Source: Streptomyces capitiformicae (GTDB lineage: Bacteria; Actinomycetota; Actinomycetes; Streptomycetales; Streptomycetaceae). Taken from it: a DNA stretch of 64,000 nt. The stretch is taken from NCBI RefSeq assembly GCF_002214185.1, contig NZ_CP022161.1, positions 6,021,486 through 6,085,485 of the forward strand, given 5' to 3'. The translations under genes and the position numbers were made by a program. Positions 36,249 to 46,790 of the stretch are shown here, in pieces. Every line of letters begins with the position of its first letter. The first letter of the stretch is position 1. A model generated the notes under the pieces. The model was given only the letters and a program-made list of their open reading frames with translations. It was not told where the DNA came from and ran no database searches.

Positions 36249-36659
36249 TCAGCCCCTCGGCTGGGTGAACCGGATGCTGTTGCCGAACGGGTCACGCAGC
36301 CCGCAGTCGATGCCGTACGGGCGCTCGGTGGGCTCCTCGGTGAACTCGACTCCGAGGCCCCGCAGGTGCTCGTAGGTCTTGCGGCAGTCATCCGTGCTGA
36401 AGATGAGGTGGCCGCCCATGGCGCCCTTCGTCAACAGCCCGCGGACCTGCTCGGCCGTCTCCTCGGACAGCGCGGGCGGACCCGGCCTCTCCAGCAGGAT
36501 CTGGCGCTCCGGATGGCCGGGCACATTGACGGTCAGCCAGCGCATGAAACCCAGGTCGGCATCGGTGTTGACCTCCAGGCCGAGCTTGCCGACGTAGAAG
36601 TCGAGGGCCTCGTCCTGGTCGAGAACGTAGATCTGCGAGTGCGTGATGGCGGTGAACAT
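36249..36659 (-). CDS. VOC family (glyoxalase-like) protein
   Basis: 136 residues from the ATG at 36659. A single VOC unit: [40 protein letters not shown] and [18 protein letters not shown]. It probably dimerises to form a metal or ligand site. The adjacent AraC gene ends 48 bases upstream on the same strand, a common pairing in streptomycetes in which the AraC protein drives the VOC gene. Confidence 0.88.
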
Positions 36660-36707
36660 GTGCCTCACGCTATCGAGTGGGCCGGAAGAAAACTTATCCA
36701 AAACTGC

Positions 36708-37100
36708 TCAGCCGTTCGGTCGCATCCACGCCTTGGCGAAACAGGTCGGCACGGCCACGGGCAACGCCTCCTTGCGGTACTCCCTTGGGGACCGGCCGAC
36801 GATCTCGCGGAACGTGCGGCTGAAGGTGCCCGGGCTGCCGAAGCCCACCTCGAAGCAGATGTCCGTCACACCGCGGTCGGTCTCCCGCAACAGGAACATC
36901 GCCCGTTCGACGCGGCGGCGCTGAAGGTAGCGGTGCGGTGTCTCGCCGAACGTGGCCCGGAAGGTGCGGGTGAAGTGTGCTTCGGACACATGCGCGATCC
37001 GGGCCAGGGACGGAACGTCCAACGGCTGGGCGTAGGAGCGATCCATGGCGTCCCTGGCCCGGAGCATGCGGCGGTTGGACTCTTCTGCGGCGCGACTCAC
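36708..37100 (-). CDS. AraC family transcriptional regulator
   Basis: 130 residues from GTG (VSRAAEESNRRMLRARD). An ATG 11 codons upstream is possible but lies next to repeated bases. The protein consists almost only of the two AraC helix-turn-helix units: LDVPSLARIAHVSEAHFTRT and VTDICFEVGFGSPGTFSRTF, with the FREIVGRSPREYR signature. There is no separate ligand domain, as in SoxS/MarA-size regulators. It probably controls itself and the following VOC gene. Confidence 0.88.
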   Translation of the reverse strand: MSRAAEESNRRMLRARDAMDRSYAQPLDVPSLARIAHVSEAHFTRTFRATFGETPHRYLQRRRVERAMFLLRETDRGVTDICFEVGFGSPGTFSRTFREIVGRSPREYRKEALPVAVPTCFAKAWMRPNG

Positions 37101-37122
37101 GGCGTCATCACACCACGTTTCT

Positions 37123-37158
37123 CCAACTGCCAACTGCCAACCGCCAACTGCAGTTGCC
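37123..37158. repeat. 7-base tandem repeat (CCAACTG) ending in a 12-base palindrome
   Basis: CCAACTG, CCAACTG, CCAACCG and CCAACTG follow in tandem, and the last merges into the perfect palindrome CAACTGCAGTTG (37145-37156). It lies exactly between the gap stop codon and the AraC gene start and could serve as terminator or operator. Confidence 0.5.
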
Positions 37159-37160
37159 GA

Positions 37161-38606
37161 TCAGACCGCCGGAGACGGGTACGTCGGGTACTCCACCCCG
37201 GAGACGTGCTGCACGACGCGGATGACCTGGCAGGAGTAGCCGAACTCGTTGTCGTACCAGAGGTAGAGGATCGCGTTGTCGCCGTCGACCTTGGTGGCGC
37301 CGGCGTCGACGATCGAGGCGTGGCGGGAGCCGATGAAGTCGCTGGAGACCGCGTCCGGGGCCGTGGTGAAGTCGATCTGACGCTTCAGCGGCGAGGTCAG
37401 CGAGACACCCCGCAGATAGTCGAGGACCTCCTCGCGGCTGGTCTCCCGGCCGAGGCGCAGGCTGAGGATGGCGATCGAGACGTCCGGCACCGGGACGCGG
37501 ATGGAGCTGCCGGTGATCGGGGCCTTGAGGTCCGGCAGCGCCTTGGCCACGGCCGACGCGGCACCGGTCTCGGTGATGACCATGTTGAGCGGCGCGGAGC
37601 GGCCGCGGCGCTCGGACTTGTGGTAGTTGTCCAGCAGGTTCTGGTCGTTGGTGAACGAGTGGACGGTCTCCACGTGGCCGCGCAGCACGCCGTACTCGTC
37701 CGCCATCGCCTTCAGCGGCGGCACGATCGCGTTGGTGGTGCAGGACGCGCAGGACAGGATCTGCTCGTCCGGCTTGATCGTGTCGTGGTTGACGCCGTGC
37801 ACGATGTTCGGGATGTCGCCCTTGCCCGGCGCGGTCAGGACGACCTTGTCGATACCGGGGCGCAGATGCTGCGACAGGCCCTCGCGGTCGCGCCACTTGC
37901 CCGTGTTGTCGATGAGGATGGCGTCCTTGATGCCGTACGCCGTGTAGTCGACCTCGGACGGGTCGCCCGCGTAGATCACCTTGATCTCGTTGCCGTTGGC
38001 GACGATCGTACTGTTCGCCTCGTCGACGGTGATCGTGCCCTGGAACTGGCCGTGGATGGAGTCCCGGCGCAGCAGCGAGGCACGCTTCACGATGTCCTGA
38101 TCGCCGCCCCCGCGGACGACGATGGCGCGCAGCCGCAGACCATTGCCGGAACCGGACTTCTCGATGAGGAGGCGCGCGACGAGGCGGCCGATGCGGCCGA
38201 AGCCGTAGAGGACGACGTCGCGTCCCTCGCCGCCCTCGATCTTGTTGACGCCGGTGGCGCCGGCGACGGCCTCGGCGGTGAACGCCTCCACCGTCAGACC
38301 GCGGTCGTCGGCCTTGTGGAGCGCGGCGAGCATGCCGATGTCGATCTGCGAAGGGCCGAGGTCGAGCGTGGTGAGGGCCTGCAGGAACGGCAGCGTGTCG
38401 GTGACCGACAGCTCCTCCCCGGCGATCTGCCGGGCGAACCGGTGGGTCTTCAGGATGCTGACCACCGACTTGTTCACCAAGGAGCGGCTGTGCAGCAGGA
38501 CGGTGACATCCCGCTCACGATGCAGCTTCCCGATGATCGGGATCATCGATTCCGCGATCTCTTCGCGGTTCTTCCAGTTGGTGAACGAGTCCTCGTTGAC
38601 AGTCAC
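37161..38606 (-). CDS. gap2: Glyceraldehyde-3-phosphate dehydrogenase, 481-residue actinobacterial type
   Basis: 481 residues. A helical N-terminal extension of about 125 residues (WKNREEIAESMIPIIGKLHR) precedes the Rossmann domain (VVLYGFGRIGRLVARLLIEK). The catalytic cysteine is in LSCASCTTNAIVPPL, and HSFTNDQNLLDNYHK and WYDNEFGYSCQVIRV match the catalytic domain. Standard GAPDHs have about 335 residues; the long type is a known second isozyme in streptomycetes, possibly gluconeogenic. It interconverts glyceraldehyde-3-phosphate and 1,3-bisphosphoglycerate. Confidence 0.93.
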   Translation of the reverse strand: MTVNEDSFTNWKNREEIAESMIPIIGKLHRERDVTVLLHSRSLVNKSVVSILKTHRFARQIAGEELSVTDTLPFLQALTTLDLGPSQIDIGMLAALHKADDRGLTVEAFTAEAVAGATGVNKIEGGEGRDVVLYGFGRIGRLVARLLIEKSGSGNGLRLRAIVVRGGGDQDIVKRASLLRRDSIHGQFQGTITVDEANSTIVANGNEIKVIYAGDPSEVDYTAYGIKDAILIDNTGKWRDREGLSQHLRPGIDKVVLTAPGKGDIPNIVHGVNHDTIKPDEQILSCASCTTNAIVPPLKAMADEYGVLRGHVETVHSFTNDQNLLDNYHKSERRGRSAPLNMVITETGAASAVAKALPDLKAPITGSSIRVPVPDVSIAILSLRLGRETSREEVLDYLRGVSLTSPLKRQIDFTTAPDAVSSDFIGSRHASIVDAGATKVDGDNAILYLWYDNEFGYSCQVIRVVQHVSGVEYPTYPSPAV

Positions 38607-38657
38607 AGATTTATCTTTCGAGCTAGGCGGCGCTCATATGCTAAGCGCTCACCGTTC

Positions 38658-38698
38658 GGATCACGCCACCGGGGTACCCGGTCCCGGTGGCGTGATCC
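38658..38698 (-). terminator. Strong hairpin terminator after the protease-nuclease operon
   Basis: Perfect 15-base arms (GGATCACGCCACCGG and CCGGTGGCGTGATCC) around an 11-base loop, 89 bases beyond the stop of the protease-endonuclease gene and upstream of gap. It would insulate the gap promoter from the large operon. Confidence 0.75.
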
Positions 38699-38786
38699 TC
38701 CGGCGATGCTCAGGAGAGGCGCCAAGCCACGGCGTAGGGCTGGAGGGCGATGACAGGTCTGCCGGAGCCTCGGCAGATCAGGGACC

Positions 38787-41003
38787 TCAGGGCCAGACGC
38801 CGGAGAAGTCGATCTTCTCGATCCATTCCGGGTGGTCTATCAGGGGATTGCGATTGCCCTGCAGCTCGGCGATGGCGGCATTGCGGTGCAACTCGTACTC
38901 GCTCACGGGCTCGTTGCCGTGCCAGGCCAGGAGCGTGGGCAGGCGGTTCTCGGGGAACTCGATGGACCTGTCGCCGATCAACCCCGGGTAGCGCAGCAGG
39001 AAGTAGAGAGTGGCTCGGGCTACCGCTCCCTTTCCTTCCTCGGGTTCGAACCCCACGGCCGTGTCACGCGCCCCGCACTCGCCCCGTATCGCCAGCTCGA
39101 ATTCGGGGAAATCGGCGAACGAGTAGTTGTTGCGGAAGCTGTTGCACCCGCTCTCGCAGGCGAACAGATGGTGGAGGTCGCCCCGCATGGGCTCCCGCCC
39201 GTCGAACCACGACTGCGGCACCACGTGTTCGCAGTTGAACGGCATCGACGCCTCCAGAGAGGCGAACTCGGCGGCGAACTCGGCCGGACCGGCAGTGCCC
39301 TCGTGGAGGATCAGCTCCTGCACGCGTGCCAGCCGCGCTTCTTCCACGGCGGCGTCCAACCGTATGAACTCCTCGGCGGAGAAGTCCTTTCCGGAGTAGA
39401 TGCTGCGCAGCCGGCCGTCCCGGTGCAGGTCGACCCACGGATAGACGAGCCGGATCGGCTTGTACTTGGGCCGGGGCCTGTGTGTCTCCGTCAGCAGTTC
39501 GGTGAGGGCGCGGCGCATTGCGTCCCCGTCGTCGGTGCCGATGTCCGCGTAGTAGGCGTCGCGTGCGGCGGTGTCGCCGGGCCGGTCGTAGTACGGCCGT
39601 TCCCGCGCGAGGCGGTGGTTGACCAGGGCGGCGTTCACGTCCCGCTGGACGGCGGAGGCCACGTCGGGCGGCCCGGCCGGGGGCGGTGCCGTGGGCGCGA
39701 GCACGGGCGGCGGGGTGGTGACGGTCGCCACCGGGAGTGCCGGCGAGTCGACTCCGATGCTGATCCGCAGCGGGACGGTGAGGTGGGCGGTGCCGTCGGC
39801 CACGTACGCCTGCGCCCCGGTGGGCCTCGGCAGGTTCGACGCACCGTCGGTCGAGGGCGCGGGTGTGGGCGGGGTGCTCTCGACCGGGGCCGGAGGTGTC
39901 CCGGCGGGCGTGCCGGCAGCCGGTCCGGAAGAGGGCCCGGGGGTGAACACCTCGTCGCGGAGCCGGGCGGCCGCACCGGTCAGGGTGATCTCGTGCAGGG
40001 CGCGCAGCACACGGCTGATCCGCACCCCCTCGTTGGCCTTCCACGCCAGTCGGTCATCGCCCATGTCCGGCGTCCAGGGCGTTCCGTCGACGCTCAGGGG
40101 GCGGCCCTCGGCGTCGGTCTTCGGGACGGCCGAGTGATGCAGCGCGACGACCTCCCACTGGTCGTTGAAGACCGGCGAACCCGACGAACCCTCACGGGTG
40201 TCGGACTCGTAGTGCATGAAGCGGTCGAGTATGTCGACGATCTGGTTCTCGCGCAGCGCGAGCTGCTTGGGCTCGCCCCGGGGGTGCTGAATGATGTTGA
40301 CGTACTCCCCGATGACGACCATGCCCTGCGCCTCGCTGAGCGTCAGCCGGCCGAACGACGAGAGTTCCTCGCCCCCCGCACCGCGTTCGGCCACCGCGAC
40401 GATGCTGAAGTCCAGAGCGCGGTCGGTGACGAAGAACCTGTGCGGCTCCAGCTGGAAGACCGCGGGTGTGAGCGGCTGCCCGTCGAGCCCGGCCTGCAGC
40501 GCGAACGCGACCACGCTGCGACGGGCCTCCTCCTGGCTGCGCAGCACATGGTTGTTGGTGAGCAGCAGGGCGGGTGACACCATGAAGCCGGTGCCGTGAC
40601 CGCCACCGGGTCCGCTGATGGTGATCCGGCCGACCGCGCGCGAGACCAGGGCACCCTCCTCCAGGAACGCGACCGGGGTGAGGTTGTTGCGCCCGATGAG
40701 GCGTTCCAGGCCCAGCACGTCGCTGCCGAAGCTCTCCGGCGGCAGCCGGAGGGTGCTTCCCGCCGCGGTGACGGGCTCCGACGGCTCCCGTTCGATCGCC
40801 CTGGCCAGCGACCAGTCGGCGCCCAGACGGGCCAGCCTCTTCTCGACCCGTTCCGGTTCGTCGGCGTACAGCACGCCACGCGTCTGGAGCAGCTCCCGGT
40901 TTCTCTCCCGCTGCCCGGTCCGGTGCGCATAGCGTTCCGCGGCCCGCGTCAGCTGGGACAGGTAGTCGGATTCGGTGAGGGAGAAGAGTTCCGCCGTTGT
41001 CAT
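38787..41003 (-). CDS. Trypsin-like serine protease fused to endonuclease I domain
   Basis: 738 residues; the ATG follows GGGAGGCGGACCC. The N-terminal 90 residues are helical. An S1-type protease covers about 100-330: LLLTNNHVL (His152), ALDFSIVAV (Asp198) and EGSSGSPVFN (Ser284), a full catalytic triad. A Pro/Thr-rich linker (roughly 380-470) leads to an endonuclease I-like (EndoI, PF04231 type) domain with NCEHVVPQSWF (His593) and GDLHHLFACESGCNSFRNNY. No signal peptide is visible. It is the last gene of a five-gene operon. The fusion of a protease with a DNase suggests an effector whose nuclease could be released or guided by proteolysis. Confidence 0.9.
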   Translation of the reverse strand: MTTAELFSLTESDYLSQLTRAAERYAHRTGQRERNRELLQTRGVLYADEPERVEKRLARLGADWSLARAIEREPSEPVTAAGSTLRLPPESFGSDVLGLERLIGRNNLTPVAFLEEGALVSRAVGRITISGPGGGHGTGFMVSPALLLTNNHVLRSQEEARRSVVAFALQAGLDGQPLTPAVFQLEPHRFFVTDRALDFSIVAVAERGAGGEELSSFGRLTLSEAQGMVVIGEYVNIIQHPRGEPKQLALRENQIVDILDRFMHYESDTREGSSGSPVFNDQWEVVALHHSAVPKTDAEGRPLSVDGTPWTPDMGDDRLAWKANEGVRISRVLRALHEITLTGAAARLRDEVFTPGPSSGPAAGTPAGTPPAPVESTPPTPAPSTDGASNLPRPTGAQAYVADGTAHLTVPLRISIGVDSPALPVATVTTPPPVLAPTAPPPAGPPDVASAVQRDVNAALVNHRLARERPYYDRPGDTAARDAYYADIGTDDGDAMRRALTELLTETHRPRPKYKPIRLVYPWVDLHRDGRLRSIYSGKDFSAEEFIRLDAAVEEARLARVQELILHEGTAGPAEFAAEFASLEASMPFNCEHVVPQSWFDGREPMRGDLHHLFACESGCNSFRNNYSFADFPEFELAIRGECGARDTAVGFEPEEGKGAVARATLYFLLRYPGLIGDRSIEFPENRLPTLLAWHGNEPVSEYELHRNAAIAELQGNRNPLIDHPEWIEKIDFSGVWP

Positions 41004-41044
41004 GGGTCCGCCTCCCGTGTGTGGCGGTGTGGTGGTGCGGCGCG

Positions 41045-42193
41045 CTACGCCACGAGTCGTGTGCTGCGTGATGCCTGGTCGGGGTGGGTCCCGAGGTAGC
41101 CGTGCGCGGAGAACGCGCCGGGTGCGAAGGCGCCCGGCGTGACGTCGTCGCCCGCCGCGAGCTCCACGCAGGCGGTCTGCGGCCGGGCCGTGCTCAGGCC
41201 GAGCCGGCAGGCGGTGGCCGTGAGCCTCACGGTGACGAAGTCGGCGATCTGGGCGCCGAACTCGATGGGCCTGCCGCCGATGGTGATGTCGCCCACGGCG
41301 AAGCCCCGGCCCGCGGGCACCTCGTAGACGGCACGTACCGGGAAGCCGGTGTCGCCGCGTTCCACGGTCCAGAAGCTCTTCGGGTCGGAGCCGTCGGGAG
41401 TGCTCCACCCGTCGGTGGCCAGGTCGTCGAAGTAGATGCCCACGGGGTCGCTGAGCGCGATGTCCGCCTTCTGCCGGGCGATCGAGTTGACCACTTCGCC
41501 GATGTGCGGGTCGCTGTTGCGGTCGGGTACGCCGTACTTGGCACAGGCGATGAGTTCCTGCGCGCCGGTGAGTTCCCGGCCGCCGATGACCCGCCGGATG
41601 GTCGCGGCGGCGGCGAGTTCGATCTCCGCGCCGAGGGTGTTGGACTGCTGGATGAGGTGCATCGCCCCCTGCGTCGTGGAGTCGTTCCACTTGTTGCGCC
41701 GTATGTACCGGCCGTTGGGGGCGAAGAGGTCGCTCCGTCGCACGGCCGGGCCGATGTGGGCGCGGTAGATGTCGAGGGCCTTGTCCGGGTTGGTCTGCGC
41801 CAGCACGTCCCAGTACTCGGGGCCCTCGCAGGTGAAGGTGGCGCGGGTGATCTTCCCGGTGCCGTCGCGGGTCACGCTCCACTCGCAGTACTCGTCCTGT
41901 ACGTCGCGGCTGGCGTCGGCGCGTTGCCAGCGCTGCCGGTCCGAGATCGCTGCCTTGAGGCGGTTGGGGAACGCTGTCCAGGTGACGGCCGCCTGGACAG
42001 CGTCCGCCGCGGTGTCCGTCTTGGTGAGGTTGTAGAACTGCGGCCGGGGGCTGTCGTGCAGCACCTCGGCGGGGTCCGGCCCGGTGATCGCCTGGTCGAC
42101 ACTGTCGCTGATGAAGACGTGCCACGCCTTCTTGCCGACGTCGTCGAGGTCGGTGAGTCGGCCGGGAGGCCCGTACGCGTTGATGGTGGTCAT
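41045..42193 (-). CDS. Protein of unknown function in the protease-nuclease operon (382 aa)
   Basis: 382 residues, not recognised. The ATG at 42193 overlaps the upstream stop by four bases. Conserved-looking blocks are QDEYCEWSVTRDGTGKI, TFTCEGPEYWDVLAQTNPDK, NKWNDSTTQGAMHLIQQSNT and YGVPDRNSDPHIGEVVNSIA. The density of Trp, Cys, His, Asp and Asn in them suggests a catalytic or metal site. A small beta-rich domain (TGFPVRAVYEVPAGRGFAVG) closes the protein. There is no signal, membrane segment or ATP-binding motif. The tight coupling to its neighbours says it works with the 533-residue protein and the proteases. Confidence 0.8.
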   Translation of the reverse strand: MTTINAYGPPGRLTDLDDVGKKAWHVFISDSVDQAITGPDPAEVLHDSPRPQFYNLTKTDTAADAVQAAVTWTAFPNRLKAAISDRQRWQRADASRDVQDEYCEWSVTRDGTGKITRATFTCEGPEYWDVLAQTNPDKALDIYRAHIGPAVRRSDLFAPNGRYIRRNKWNDSTTQGAMHLIQQSNTLGAEIELAAAATIRRVIGGRELTGAQELIACAKYGVPDRNSDPHIGEVVNSIARQKADIALSDPVGIYFDDLATDGWSTPDGSDPKSFWTVERGDTGFPVRAVYEVPAGRGFAVGDITIGGRPIEFGAQIADFVTVRLTATACRLGLSTARPQTACVELAAGDDVTPGAFAPGAFSAHGYLGTHPDQASRSTRLVA

Positions 42194-43791
42194 GGAGAAC
42201 CTCCGGTGGTCACGACACCGACGGTGCCGTCCTCGTTCATGCGCAGCCGTGGTGCGTCGGCGGGGATGTCGGTGGTCGGCAGGGTGAGCGCGAATTCGTT
42301 GAGCCTCATCTCCCTGAATGCGCGGCGGCGTGATTCCGTCAGCCGGACGCAGTCGTCGAATCCCGACGCCGTACGGATCCGTGCCGTGACCTTCTCCAGG
42401 TACACGTCCACCCGCTGGGCGAAGACACCGGGCCAATCGGCCTCGGGGACCGCCCAGTTGCGTGCGAACTCGGCCTCGGGGCTGTCGGCGGGCAGGGTCC
42501 GCGCGGTGGCGACGACGGCCGAGGCGATGTCGTCGCACCAGGTCGAGGCGGGTACGGGCGCGGTGGGCACGTAGCGCATCAGATGGGCACGGACCGGGCT
42601 GAATACCGGGTTGGTGAAGTCCACCATCAGCGCACAGGCCGCGAACCTGGCCGGCACGAGGCCCTGCTTCACCGACTGCCGCACCACGTCGTTGTCCTCG
42701 TACGCGGGCTCCGGGACGACGAAGGCGAAGAACGTGTCACCCGGCTGCGAGAAGGCGCTCACCTGTTCCTCCAGCCGGAAGCCGAAAGCCGTGAGGCTGT
42801 CCGCGTACAGGGACGCCGGCGCGGTGGGCACGGTCTCCATGCCCACCGGCAGGCCGAGATCGTTGAGCAGGGCGTCGGCGTTCAGCCAGAAGCCCAGGGG
42901 CAGGGGCAGATCCCTGCCGCCGGACGTGACCGTCGCGCTCTGCGTCGACGTACTGGCGAGGTTGACCGTGGTGCTCGTGAACAACTGCCGCAGCAGATGG
43001 TCGGGGTGCGCCACCATGCCGTCGGCGACGACCGCCGAGAGGCGCGCTGTGGTCCACCGGGAGACGAGGCCCTTCACCGTGAGCTCCAGGCGCTCGGCGC
43101 CGATCACTTGACGGTAGAGCGGGTTGTCGCGCAACGGGTCATCCGGGGCGAGCTGGATCGTCGCGGACATGGACTGCCAGTTGCTCCAGGGCTGCTTGAG
43201 CTCCTTCATGACGACGCTGCCGTTGACGTGACTGTCGAAGCAGCCCTTTCCCCGGGACTCGGGTGCCAACGACGACCAGGAATCGCCCGTCCAGATCCAG
43301 GCCGGCGAGATCCGCATGTAGTAGTTGAAGACCCGGGCGACCGGGTCCCAGGCGGCGACCTGGAGGAAGACCGAGCCGGGGTCGCTGCTGACCAGCAGGT
43401 CGGGGTCCCTGCCCGGTGCCGCGCGGGAGATCGCAAAACGGAAGTCGCGGCGGAGCCCGGGGGCCTCGTCCGGCGGGATCTGCCCGGCCTCACTGATCAG
43501 ATACACGGACTGCGCCGTGAGCTCGCCCGCCGCGGTGAGCCCGTCCAGCACCTCTTCCAGCGTCATGGGCCAACGGCCCTGCCGGAAGAAGACCGTGGCC
43601 ATCGGGTCCCGCAGCCCGGCGAACTGCCCGGCGGGCATGGGCGCCGGTCCGCGATCCACGCCGCTCACGCCTCGGTACAGCGTCCCCGGTCTTAGTCCTC
43701 CGCCTTCGTCCGCGGCCGCGACGGCTGCCGTCGCGGCCGCAGGCCAGGCGGTCGTCCGTCGGCGTTCAGGAGTGCGGTCCCACAGCGACAT
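42190..43791 (-). CDS. Protein of unknown function in the protease-nuclease operon (533 aa)
   Basis: 533 residues, not recognised. The N-terminal 35 residues are Ala/Arg-rich and disordered. The rest is mixed alpha/beta with notable blocks YYMRISPAWIWTGDSWSSLA, GCFDSHVNGSVVMKELKQPW and CALMVDFTNPVFSPVRAHLM, and an acidic C-terminus. No signal peptide, membrane helix, Walker motif or nuclease/protease signature is visible. It starts 27 bases after the subtilase gene and overlaps the 382-residue gene by four bases, so it is co-translated with it. The two may form a complex. Confidence 0.8.
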   Translation of the reverse strand: MSLWDRTPERRRTTAWPAAATAAVAAADEGGGLRPGTLYRGVSGVDRGPAPMPAGQFAGLRDPMATVFFRQGRWPMTLEEVLDGLTAAGELTAQSVYLISEAGQIPPDEAPGLRRDFRFAISRAAPGRDPDLLVSSDPGSVFLQVAAWDPVARVFNYYMRISPAWIWTGDSWSSLAPESRGKGCFDSHVNGSVVMKELKQPWSNWQSMSATIQLAPDDPLRDNPLYRQVIGAERLELTVKGLVSRWTTARLSAVVADGMVAHPDHLLRQLFTSTTVNLASTSTQSATVTSGGRDLPLPLGFWLNADALLNDLGLPVGMETVPTAPASLYADSLTAFGFRLEEQVSAFSQPGDTFFAFVVPEPAYEDNDVVRQSVKQGLVPARFAACALMVDFTNPVFSPVRAHLMRYVPTAPVPASTWCDDIASAVVATARTLPADSPEAEFARNWAVPEADWPGVFAQRVDVYLEKVTARIRTASGFDDCVRLTESRRRAFREMRLNEFALTLPTTDIPADAPRLRMNEDGTVGVVTTGGSP

Positions 43792-43818
43792 GGTTTTTCC
43801 ACCCTCCGTCGCGCACTG

Positions 43819-45327
43819 TCAGGGGATCTGGTCGAGGACGAAGGACAGGGCGGCGTCGACGTTCACCAGACCCGCGCCTGTGGCCTCGTCGGGTCCGATC
43901 CGCGCCGGACGGTTGAATCTCGGATGGTTCGCGCCGATGGTGACGTCGACCGCCGTCTTGGTGAGGGCCTTGATGACCTGGTGGGGCGTGAGCTTCGGCC
44001 GGGCTCCGAGCAGTACGGCCGCCGCTCCCGCGACCTGCGGCGCCGCCGCCGACGTGCCGGAGAACAGCGCCCACCCGTCATCCTCCGCCGTACCGTCGCC
44101 GCGGTCGGGCAGCTGCCCGTCGGCCTGGGCCCGGCTCTCGGACACGTCGAGCGCGCAGCCGGGCGGCACCGGCAGCATGAGGTACTGCGCCCGGGGTCGC
44201 ATGCCGACCAGACCGGACACCACGGGCACGACGACGCCGTCGAACCACGGGCTGGCGTAGCCGCTCGCGTAGTCGGAGGCCCGCAGCTCCAGCCCCGGTC
44301 CCACGAACACGCCACCGACGGACAGCACTCCGGGAACCTGCGGTTCCATGGCGAACTGTCCGTTCATGGCCGAGAAGACGACGGTGATGCCCCGCTCCAC
44401 CGCGTCCCTGATCTCCAGTGCGAACACGTTGTCGTTCTCCGTGGGCGGACCCACGGGAGGGAACGTCCGCGACCCGCCCCAGGAGTTGGTGAGCACCTGC
44501 GGGCCCTCGGCCTTCGCGCCCAAACAGTCGGCCTTCGCACGGATGAAGGCCGTGAAGGCGCCGGTCAGGTTGCCGGAATTGTCACTCGCCCGGTAGGCGT
44601 GGAGGCCGGCTCCGGGTGCCACGGCGAAGACGTTCGCCGATTCGCCGGTCCCGTGTCCGATGGGATCGTGCACGGGACTGGTGCCCGGCAGGACCGCGAC
44701 CGTGGGCGAGACCTGGTAGCCGTGTGCGGCGAAGTAGGTGTGCGGGAACTGCCCGGTGTCCACCATGGCGACCCGGACCCCGGCACCCACCGCACCCCGG
44801 GCATGGGCCCGGGTGGCGCCCAGCAGCATGGCGACGTCACCCGGCAGCCTGAGGTGGAACCTGTCGACGTTGGGCGGCTGGGCGGACGGCACGAGGCGCG
44901 CCGGTGTACGCGGTGACTCCAGGGCCACGGCCTCGATCGCGTCGGTCCCCGGCACATCGCCCACCCCACGGGCCTCGGGCTGCCGCTCGCCCACGATGTC
45001 CAGCTGCGTCACATAGCGGATGTGGTCCATCTCGACCTGGCGCAGCGCCTCGTAGGTCTCGACCCTGCCGCCGGTCAGCTCCTCGTACGCCGCGGGCGGT
45101 CCGCTGACCGTGAAGCCCAGCCGGCTCTCGGCCGTGATGGTCAGTCCGGCCGCGAGGGCGTAGTCCTCGGCACGCTGCTGGCTCTCCGGGTCGGTCCGGA
45201 ACGGCTCGGCCGAGTCCCAGAGAGTGGCCCGGGTCATCGGTGTCCCGCCCCGTGACCGGGCCGACACATAGCCGTACACCTGTTCTGGAGCGGGTTGCCC
45301 GTACTGGGGCGTCATGGGGAGCGTCAT
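43819..45327 (-). CDS. Subtilisin-like (S8) serine protease without export signal
   Basis: 502 residues; the ATG follows TGGAGGACCG. Residues 50-100 look like a propeptide (YALAAGLTITAESRLGFTVS, YEELTGGRVETYEAL). The S8 catalytic domain has Asp190 in RVAMVDTGQFP, His225 in PIGHGTGESA and Ser426 in ALFSGTSAAAPQ, with NSWGG and a VFSAMNG oxyanion strand. The C-terminal helix LTPHQVIKALTKTAVDV is standard. No signal peptide, Tat motif or membrane anchor is visible, unusual for a streptomycete subtilase, so it may act inside the cell or leave by a leaderless route. It follows the small propeptide-like gene by 49 bases. Confidence 0.9.
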   Translation of the reverse strand: MTLPMTPQYGQPAPEQVYGYVSARSRGGTPMTRATLWDSAEPFRTDPESQQRAEDYALAAGLTITAESRLGFTVSGPPAAYEELTGGRVETYEALRQVEMDHIRYVTQLDIVGERQPEARGVGDVPGTDAIEAVALESPRTPARLVPSAQPPNVDRFHLRLPGDVAMLLGATRAHARGAVGAGVRVAMVDTGQFPHTYFAAHGYQVSPTVAVLPGTSPVHDPIGHGTGESANVFAVAPGAGLHAYRASDNSGNLTGAFTAFIRAKADCLGAKAEGPQVLTNSWGGSRTFPPVGPPTENDNVFALEIRDAVERGITVVFSAMNGQFAMEPQVPGVLSVGGVFVGPGLELRASDYASGYASPWFDGVVVPVVSGLVGMRPRAQYLMLPVPPGCALDVSESRAQADGQLPDRGDGTAEDDGWALFSGTSAAAPQVAGAAAVLLGARPKLTPHQVIKALTKTAVDVTIGANHPRFNRPARIGPDEATGAGLVNVDAALSFVLDQIP

Positions 45328-45376
45328 CGGTCCTCCAGTCGTCGCCGGGGCGAGGGGCGACCGGGACGGTCGTCGC

Positions 45377-45685
45377 TCAGTCCGGGGAGGCGGTGTCGGC
45401 GCCGAGAGCGGGGAGCGGCAGGACGGTGACGGACCGCGTGGTGTCCCGGAGCGCCGGTGGGACCGGAAGTGACCGAGGCTGTGCGCGATCGCCCGGGGGC
45501 TCGCCGAAGGCCTCGGCGAACCGGTCGGCGGGTCCCGTGAGAAGGGCACCGGCGGTCATGGGGGACACGTCGATTCCGTGCTCGGCGCACCACTCGACCA
45601 GTTCGCCCACCGGTGCGTCGGCGTGCAGTTGCACGAGGGCCTCGACGAACTCCTCCCCGGAGCCGTCGCTTTGCTCCGCTGCCAC
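45377..45685 (-). CDS. Small protein resembling a protease propeptide or inhibitor
   Basis: 102 residues from GTG with GGAGACACC ahead. The core EALVQLHADAPVGELVEWCA, EHGIDVSPMTAGALLTGP and ADRFAEAFGEPP has the alpha-beta-beta-alpha logic and end motif (GP..F..AFG) of S53/S8 propeptides, and it resembles residues 50-90 of the subtilase next door. The C-terminal 35 residues are Pro/Arg-rich and unstructured. It is the first gene of the operon and may be a free-standing inhibitor or chaperone for the subtilase. The identification is by pattern only. Confidence 0.65.
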   Translation of the reverse strand: MAAEQSDGSGEEFVEALVQLHADAPVGELVEWCAEHGIDVSPMTAGALLTGPADRFAEAFGEPPGDRAQPRSLPVPPALRDTTRSVTVLPLPALGADTASPD

Positions 45686-45790
45686 GGTGTCTCCGGTCTC
45701 TCCTTGAAGTTGGCTCTCCCCCTTTCGATGCTGACAGGTGCGGCAAATATGTGCAAAAGGGTCCCAAGTCCCTGTGTTTACCGGCGTTCA

Positions 45791-45815
45791 GTATTCTGCT
45801 CGGTGTTCGGAATAC
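45791..45815. promoter_or_regulatory. Inverted repeat upstream of the protease-nuclease operon
   Basis: GTATTC and GAATAC arms are separated by 13 bases, about 105 bases before the operon start and just beyond the stop of the lipoprotein gene. The region 45700-45833 is AT-richer than its surroundings (for example GCACATATTTGCC on the minus strand) and holds the only plausible promoter for the operon. No -10/-35 pair is convincing. Confidence 0.35.
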
Positions 45816-45833
45816 CGAATTCCTGCCGGTCCG

Positions 45834-46790
45834 CTAGCCGAAGCTGGGGCTGGGCACGAGCAGGTCTTCGAGATCTTCGACGAAGTCGGTGGGGAGAGGA
45901 GTGGGGGCGTAGGGCTCGGGCTCGGCCGTGGGGGAGGGCACGTCGTCGGGATCGGCCGTCGGCGTGCCGTCCGGACCGCAGACATGTGCCGCCTCCGGAC
46001 GGGTCAGATGGTTGGTGGCCACGCGCTCGGTCCGGAAGTCCACGTCGTCGATCTCGCCGAGACCGCTGTCGCGCAGGTGGATCGTCTCCGGCAGCTCCTT
46101 CTCGGTGAGCGGTTTGCCGACGGTCACGGTTGCCAGCGCACCCACGCACACGCTTCGGTCGTCGGCGTACAGCTTCTTGGGCGCGGCGACCTCCTGGAGC
46201 TTCCGGCCGTCGTGGCGCAGCCGGGTCTGCTGCGCGCGCTCCATCGAGAAGTAGAAGTCCGGGTTCCCCGCGGGGTCGGACGGCTTGTCACCTTCCGCCG
46301 GTGAGCCGTAGGTGAGCTTCCAGTACTCCACTGTCACGTCGATGGGCTCGCACAGCGGGCCGTCGTAGCCGGGTTCGCTCTGCGACAGAGTGACGGCCTT
46401 GATCTCCTCGACGTCGGTCTGTGCGGAGTGCAGGATCAGCCAGGTCCTGGTCTTCTCGACCGACCAACCGCTGTTGTCATGGCATCCCGCGGGGCCGGTG
46501 GGATAGAGAGGGGTACGCGACGGTGTGGGCGAAGCCGTCGACTCCGTCGCCGAAGGAGTGCTCCCGGCCGCCGTCTCGGTGTCGTCACCGCCGGAGCAAC
46601 CGGCCGTGAGCAGGACACTCCCGACCACGAGAGCGGCGAGCGGCCTCCCCTTCCACGCGCCGCGTCGGCGACGCCCCGGTGCCCTGGCCCTGCCGCCCCC
46701 TCCGCGGCAGCGACTCGGGTCCGTAGTGCCCACCGTCGCGTGCGTGGCAACCGTGGCATCCGACTCCGGTACGACCGACCCGGCCCGCAT
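45834..46790 (-). CDS. Lipoprotein of unknown function
   Basis: 318 residues. A 45-residue Arg/Gly-rich leader precedes the hydrophobic stretch PLAALVVGSVLLTAGC, whose LTAGC is a lipobox; a start nearer the hydrophobic segment is possible, though GGGGGACGAGT precedes the used ATG. After a Thr/Ser/Pro-rich spacer the globular part (WSVEKTRTWLILHSAQTDVE, IDVTVEYWKLTYGSPAEGD, SMERAQQTRLRHDGRKLQEV) matches no family I know. Four cysteines could form two disulfides. It ends in a Pro-rich acidic tail. A 12-base palindrome lies upstream. Confidence 0.7.
   Translation of the reverse strand: MRAGSVVPESDATVATHATVGTTDPSRCRGGGGRARAPGRRRRGAWKGRPLAALVVGSVLLTAGCSGGDDTETAAGSTPSATESTASPTPSRTPLYPTGPAGCHDNSGWSVEKTRTWLILHSAQTDVEEIKAVTLSQSEPGYDGPLCEPIDVTVEYWKLTYGSPAEGDKPSDPAGNPDFYFSMERAQQTRLRHDGRKLQEVAAPKKLYADDRSVCVGALATVTVGKPLTEKELPETIHLRDSGLGEIDDVDFRTERVATNHLTRPEAAHVCGPDGTPTADPDDVPSPTAEPEPYAPTPLPTDFVEDLEDLLVPSPSFG

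Follow-up and report, generated by a model that had tools for sequence, protein, structure and literature searches.

A 64,000-nucleotide stretch of the Streptomyces capitiformicae chromosome (the window; positions 6,021,486-6,085,485 of the 10.99-Mb chromosome of genome G000) carries five minus-strand open reading frames (ORFs) in one row, g1 to g5, with successive gaps of 49, 27, -4 and 41 bases. The first, g1 (45377..45685), encodes a small protein of 102 residues from a GTG start and is followed by g2 (43819..45327), a subtilase (S8) of 502 residues; g3 (42190..43791), a protein of 533 residues; g4 (41045..42193), a protein of 382 residues sharing an ATGA overlap with g3; and g5 (38787..41003), a fusion of 738 residues in which a Trypsin_2 peptidase, a proline/alanine-rich linker and an Endonuclease I domain succeed one another. 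Relatives of g3 and g4, referred to as the 533 and 382 families, form a widely conserved pair that is repeatedly found beside or fused to proteases and nucleases, and the operon is tentatively read here as an intracellular protease-nuclease module of conflict or self-destruction.

Most of what the original prediction had read from the letters of this locus was borne out. ORF coordinates reproduced the single-strand layout and its gaps, and Pfam identified the subtilase (PF00082 Peptidase_S8, 9.3e-18) as well as the fusion, with Trypsin_2 (1.1e-23) and Endonuclease_1 (1.7e-29) on the same polypeptide. The motifs said to be intact were found so in g2 (VDTG, GHGT and GTSAAAP), in the S1 part of g5 (TNNHVL, LDFSIV and GSSGSP) and in its nuclease part (NCEHVVPQSWF and GDLHHLF), each containing what we take to be the catalytic residues. 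A hydrophobic N-terminal segment was absent from all five proteins, as had been claimed, the highest 15-residue Kyte-Doolittle mean within the first 70 residues being 0.27-1.05, whereas three related proteins assumed to be exported reach 2.1-2.5. The PDB sequence relatives of g5 are Endonuclease I and V8/Spl proteases, which its catalytic domains resemble; such enzymes are separate proteins, secreted or periplasmic, whereas in g5 they are fused into a single protein that shows no export segment.

Other claims needed correction. The proposed hairpin downstream is present as a perfect inverted repeat between the 3' end of g5 and the next minus-strand gene (38658..38698; arms 38658-38673 and 38683-38698, 9-nt loop; fold z = -6.5), with a stem of 16 bp rather than 15, and was not called by a terminator scan that requires a T run. 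The promoter scan detected no sigma-70-type promoter in 38400-46000, where an upstream candidate had been suggested. The label 'propeptide-like', given to g1 from reading its sequence, gained no backing, as g1 matched nothing in the library and, by BLASTP, did not match g2 significantly; a relative of g1 lies beside a g2 relative in genome G102 (locus L097). Like g1, neither g3 nor g4 matched Pfam or NCBIfam above the cut-off. PF26676 is a precomputed label on the g4 relatives listed, the closest named ones belonging to Streptomyces (84-91% identical), and no description of PF26676 or of the 533-382 pair was found in listings of the open-access literature.

The distribution of the pair was assessed in 78 genome loci, a sample derived from the best 80 kept of 192 confirmed stretches with g4 relatives, and in 13 plasmid loci (25 plasmid records had matched), giving 91 loci. 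In 10 of the 78 loci the 382 gene escaped a simple gene caller, as did the S8 gene of L032, and the counts over 91 loci were taken from six-frame translations. Relatives of g3 stand beside relatives of g4 in 60/78 genome loci, mostly upstream and on the same strand, and 533 adjoins 382 in 67/91 loci. This pairing is not due to chance: the 533-382 pair is the core that is conserved, across many bacterial phyla. Residues E101, Y102, E104, E123, Y127, N170, N185, R225, D228, P229, P250, G252 and R279 are identical in all 75 aligned 382 sequences, a pattern suggestive of an active site, and C103 is kept in 71; the 382 protein therefore looks like an enzyme, with 533 as its apparent dedicated partner, one related to forms that bear CxxCH and an export segment. 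Broken 533 reading frames occur in L040, L061 and L122, where the motif region is unreadable in a single frame, and 382 is also broken in L061. A phage origin of the pair was considered, given the names 'minor tail protein' and 'portal protein' on single relatives, and was rejected as unsupported: viral contigs gave three pattern matches, none of them confirmed, and phage records gave no match. This lack of relatives could be listed against a conflict role, yet it says nothing on defence either way.

The 533 family divides according to a heme-type motif. Both a CFDCH or CFACH motif and an N-terminal hydrophobic segment were found in 7/55 full-length members, from cyanobacteria, Enhygromyxa and a Pseudoalteromonas metagenome-assembled genome (MAG), the hydrophobic N-terminus being present in 7/7 members of this CxxCH branch; the other 48 lack CxxCH and carry CxxSH (29) or a PFDSH-like motif (19). 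One of them, L013 (CFDSH), passes the hydropathy cut-off (1.62 against 1.6), probably through a mis-called start. In a tree of 58 proteins, which took in four plasmid 533s and left out the L034 fusion and pieces below 450 residues, the CxxCH group occupies one side of a single branch (support 100/100). The covariation of CxxCH with export therefore represents one evolutionary event, gain or loss, and its Fisher p of 4e-8 is overstated for that reason. From the motif, we infer that the CxxCH forms would bind heme. The window protein g3 has CFDSH at this position and no hydrophobic N-terminus, and so lacks the combination of CxxCH and export signal expected of a heme-c protein. Among the 382 rows listed, two exceed the hydropathy cut-off, L083 and a second copy in L071, the latter perhaps with a mis-called start.

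Where 382 occurs without 533 (24/91 loci), it keeps other company. A DyP peroxidase gene lies within 2.5 kb in 13 of these loci (downstream and on the same strand in 12), and a member of a partner family termed c1 in 8; one or the other thus accompanies 382 in 21/24. CxxCH is present in 11/11 c1 members, with a hydrophobic N-terminus in both of the two checked. The window resembles these loci in having a 382-family gene next to a partner gene, there of peroxidase or heme type, but its partner is a 533 with CFDSH and its operon has no DyP. Homology of 533 to c1 or DyP was considered and rejected, the profile comparison being not significant (probability <=4.5%), and the likeness between CFDSH and CLGCH is therefore local resemblance only. 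Several annotations near pair relatives are recorded here separately. On the Acaryochloris plasmid pREC1 (L125:2588-9677), a 382-DyP pair is immediately preceded, on its own strand, by a gene annotated as an NB-ARC domain protein, and on Sinorhizobium meliloti pSmeSM11b a 3525-base 'peroxidase' gene matching the DyP profile lies directly downstream of a 382-family gene (L124:8316-11840), with two radical SAM genes nearby. An annotated 'heme-binding protein' is encoded upstream of 533-382 in Rhizobium (L121:3911-4945), and a Dormiibacterota MAG has a 46% relative of it (L029:14262-15089) ~3.2 kb downstream of 533-382.

Hydrolases are linked to the pair far from Streptomyces. Twenty-one non-actinobacterial 533 loci without CxxCH were compared (L029, L032-L037, L039-L042, L046, L054, L061, L092, L093, L095, L119-L122), which include three near-copies (L040 and L122 of L093, L119 of L041; 97-99% identical in 382); related loci are not independent. 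An S8 gene is the next gene in 7/21 (L032, L034, L035, L037, L039, L095 and L121), upstream of the pair in three and downstream in four; for scale, the window's 10.99-Mb genome contains 22 S8 genes. Counting S8, trypsin, M4 or PLD either fused or within ~2.7 kb, the figure rises to 11/21 with the addition of L033, L042, L046 and L092. LodA lies within ~3.1 kb in 5/21 (L033, L041, L054, L119 and L120), and none of these five families is so near in 6/21 (L029, L036, L040, L061, L093 and L122). Fusions to PLD occur in three loci, as 382-PLD (L032, L095) and 533-382-PLD (L034). In L033, a 382-Trypsin_2-Exo_endo_phos-Endonuclease_NS fusion is followed by EAD1-Trypsin_2 and EAD1 proteins, and in L035 a Trypsin_2-Endonuclease_NS gene lies 4 kb from the pair relatives.

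Catalogued defence genes accompany the pair on one plasmid. On Rhizobium leguminosarum pR132503 the gene order is S53, 'heme-binding', 533, 382, S8, small, PLD, unknown, PtuA and PtuB (Septu), with GajB/GajA (Gabija) ~5 kb past PtuA/PtuB on the other strand; the distance from the pair is 6.5 kb to the start of PtuA and 14 kb to that of GajB, with PADLOC matches of 1.4e-115 or better. Upstream of an insertion-element gene, the array also holds a caspase and two trypsin (S1) genes, whose products have hydrophobic N-termini and which may be a separate group. At 1e-6, these Septu and Gabija genes had no match in the other loci examined, save for a partial PtuA-like match in L067. In this region (L128:8258-31892 and 36543-40750), the protease/pair/Septu array lies on a single strand, and a reverse transcriptase accompanies Gabija on the other strand nearby.

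Among known systems, the operon comes closest to loci combining trypsin and NucA, in some cases with S8, which were proposed as a conflict system whose peptidase activates it by proteolysis ('System 3'; Kaur et al., 2020; PMC7159879), a NucA-trypsin mechanism also treated in PMC8195603. As described in the portions of the 2020 source consulted, System 3 shares with the window a trypsin-like peptidase fused to a nuclease (g5) and an S8 alongside in some members (g2, here a separate gene and not the same polypeptide). Pair relatives themselves occur within such a locus (L033) and near a Trypsin_2-Endonuclease_NS gene (L035). The differences are that System 3 has NucA (Endonuclease NS), whereas g5 has Endonuclease_1 and no Endonuclease_NS match at E<=1; that EAD1, carried on a trypsin paralog in a subset and present in L033, has no match at E<=1 in the five proteins; and that the same portions of text name no partners recognisable as 533 or 382. 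The window operon was not filed as a System 3 member because its nuclease is not NucA. Endonuclease I and NucA are both His-Me/HNH-type nucleases.

We therefore favour, with a probability of a little under four in ten, the reading that the operon is an intracellular protease-nuclease conflict or self-destruction module around a redox-related 533-382 pair. A broadly conserved, non-exported 533+382 unit would have been joined, in one Streptomyces clade, to the g1-g2 S8 cassette and to g5. Stress or an invader would give a signal, perhaps perceived by way of 533-382, that renders the S8 and S1 proteases active; proteolysis within the long Pro/Ala-rich linker of g5 would free the nuclease, which would then degrade DNA, with 533-382 serving as sensor, regulator or further effector. 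The intracellular site, the activation by proteolysis, the sensing role, the destruction of DNA and the enzymatic nature of 382 are all predictions, whereas the gene layout, the intact motifs, the independence of the modules described below, the co-conservation of the pair, its recurrent linkage to hydrolases and the one-branch covariation of CxxCH with export are observed. The conflict or programmed-death role first suggested for the locus is partly supported by a pair that neighbours proteases, nucleases and PLD or is fused with them, once with EAD1-trypsin and once in a Septu/Gabija array; it is plausible, and its circumstantial support is better than was visible from the sequence alone. 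Were it true, the peptidase-activated nuclease systems proposed for multicellular bacteria would gain an Endonuclease I variant, two widely shared and unstudied protein families would be named as partners of such systems, and heme/peroxidase chemistry would be linked to protease-type conflict loci. The 533-382 pair is directly testable, being found in Streptomyces and, on one Rhizobium plasmid, in a Septu/Gabija neighbourhood.

A broader version, which we consider unlikely, would place 533-382 at the heart of a modular conflict system that has gone unrecognised. Here 382 would be an enzyme of a new family, working elsewhere with heme-type or peroxidase partners and in this setting inside the cell, with a partner devoid of the heme motif as trigger or effector, and, through adjacency or fusion, 382 would recruit exchangeable partners, either hydrolases (S8, trypsin-nuclease, M4, PLD) or oxidases (LodA, tyrosinase).

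A number of observations weigh against a conflict role, beginning with the composition of the operon. Co-conservation, to which the original prediction had looked, holds for the pair across phyla but not for the five genes, which are not a conserved system as a whole: the full set occurs in the window and in only 5/78 loci (L006, L008, L009, L010 and L025), all Streptomyces. L007 and L011 have g3-g4-g5 without g1-g2 within the flanks examined, and in L031 g3-g4 are accompanied by a Trypsin_2 protein that lacks Endonuclease I. Three modules, [g1-g2 S8], [g5 Trypsin_2-Endonuclease I] and [533+382], are each found without the others. In stretches of 16-17 kb, g1+g2 stand without the remaining genes in G102, g5 in G164 and G186, and g3+g4 in G069 and G087, and g2 is without g1 in G189, G083 and three more distant cases. 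The g1-g2 and g5 modules occur without the pair at L097, L115 and L116, and a whole-genome search of G083, G102, G164, G186 and G189 with the 533 profile found no member (0/5). Separable modules make the operon an assembly of three cassettes and weaken the idea of a single five-part machine. The gene next downstream in the window (37161-38606, minus strand) has glyceraldehyde-3-phosphate dehydrogenase domains by Pfam, and a gene of this type, 94-96% identical to it, lies 3' of the cassette in 6/78 loci (L006-L010 and L025), which indicates one insertion place common to the clade.

The surroundings of the pair add further objections. Phage-defence neighbours, the other sign named in the original prediction, were seen near the one Rhizobium plasmid copy, but the 25 ORFs flanking the window operon showed no recognisable defence system, with one member each to nine PADLOC models; the five operon proteins gave only weak trypsin- or subtilase-type matches in PADLOC-DB 2.0.0 (best 27.6 bits) and no complete catalogued system. 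The Rhizobium copies L093 and L122 lie instead beside VapBC and rhi genes. Loci with a given family near (<2.5 kb) versus far (>4.5 kb) from the pair number 12:3 for S8, 9:3 for trypsin, 17:1 for DyP, 3:0 for PLD and 4:0 for tyrosinase, a contrast biased by the choice of families already seen near the pair and by counting the Streptomyces clade several times; M4 (3:3) and LodA (2:4) show no near excess.

The strongest rival, possible in its own right, holds that 533-382 is an ordinary, though uncharacterised, two-subunit redox or cofactor enzyme, joined to proteases in one Streptomyces clade incidentally or as an effect of shared regulation. No S8, trypsin, M4 or PLD match was found in the flanks examined (mostly 8-10 kb on each side, less where a contig ended) of 24/39 actinobacterial 533 loci, which counts against the conflict role and suits this alternative, as do the DyP and c1 partners of 382 where 533 is missing, the seven CxxCH-bearing 533 members with an export segment, and the neighbours LodA, tyrosinase and quinone-cofactor-type radical SAM, all of which fit metabolism or extracellular redox chemistry. 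There is also a precedent in DtpA/GlxA (PMC4736821), where a DyP is required to mature an enzyme with a Tyr-Cys cofactor. For part of the data, a redox-enzyme role is about as good an explanation as a conflict role. It accounts less easily for 382 being fused with PLD and with a protease-nuclease module and for the S8 adjacency in several lineages and arrangements, which are hard to explain by chance, and the window 533 itself lacks CxxCH.

Developmental recycling, in which protein and DNA would be broken down during programmed mycelial autolysis and not in conflict with an invader, is distinctly unlikely. Streptomyces hosts would suit it, as would proteases and a nuclease with intact motifs and no export segment, and g5-type Streptomyces proteins are many (2791 matches, of which the 120 listed carry the labels Trypsin_2 and Endonuclease_1). 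Unlike a developmental core function, however, the genes are patchy in sampled Streptomycetaceae, the samples being not identical: with the window's genome included in each case, g4 was found in 5/297 genomes, while g2 had strong relatives (E<1e-60) in 7/294 and the nuclease part of g5 (E<1e-100) in 3/200. The pair is also borne on plasmids, 14/25 matching records being typed conjugative. Improbable, finally, is a signal-less export of antibacterial or digestive enzymes with the pair as their delivery or maturation factor: several partners (S8, M4, PLD, DyP) lack an obvious hydrophobic start where N-termini were read, and so do the 382 proteins read, even where the CxxCH partner has an export segment, but the caspase and both S1 proteases of the Rhizobium array have hydrophobic N-termini.

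A further arrangement recurs near 382-family genes. In Arthrobacter sp. Leaf337 (L030:3252-7961), L054:2627-6691 and L126:470-5311, a LodA_N-like protein, a QhpD-like radical SAM and a LodA_C/ferritin-like protein are encoded in a row; in L054, the LodA_N-like protein was scanned and the radical SAM assigned by cluster. The row is possibly a split LodA-like enzyme with its radical SAM maturase, and on a Nostoc plasmid it is annotated as ferritin-like, radical SAM and ferritin-like.

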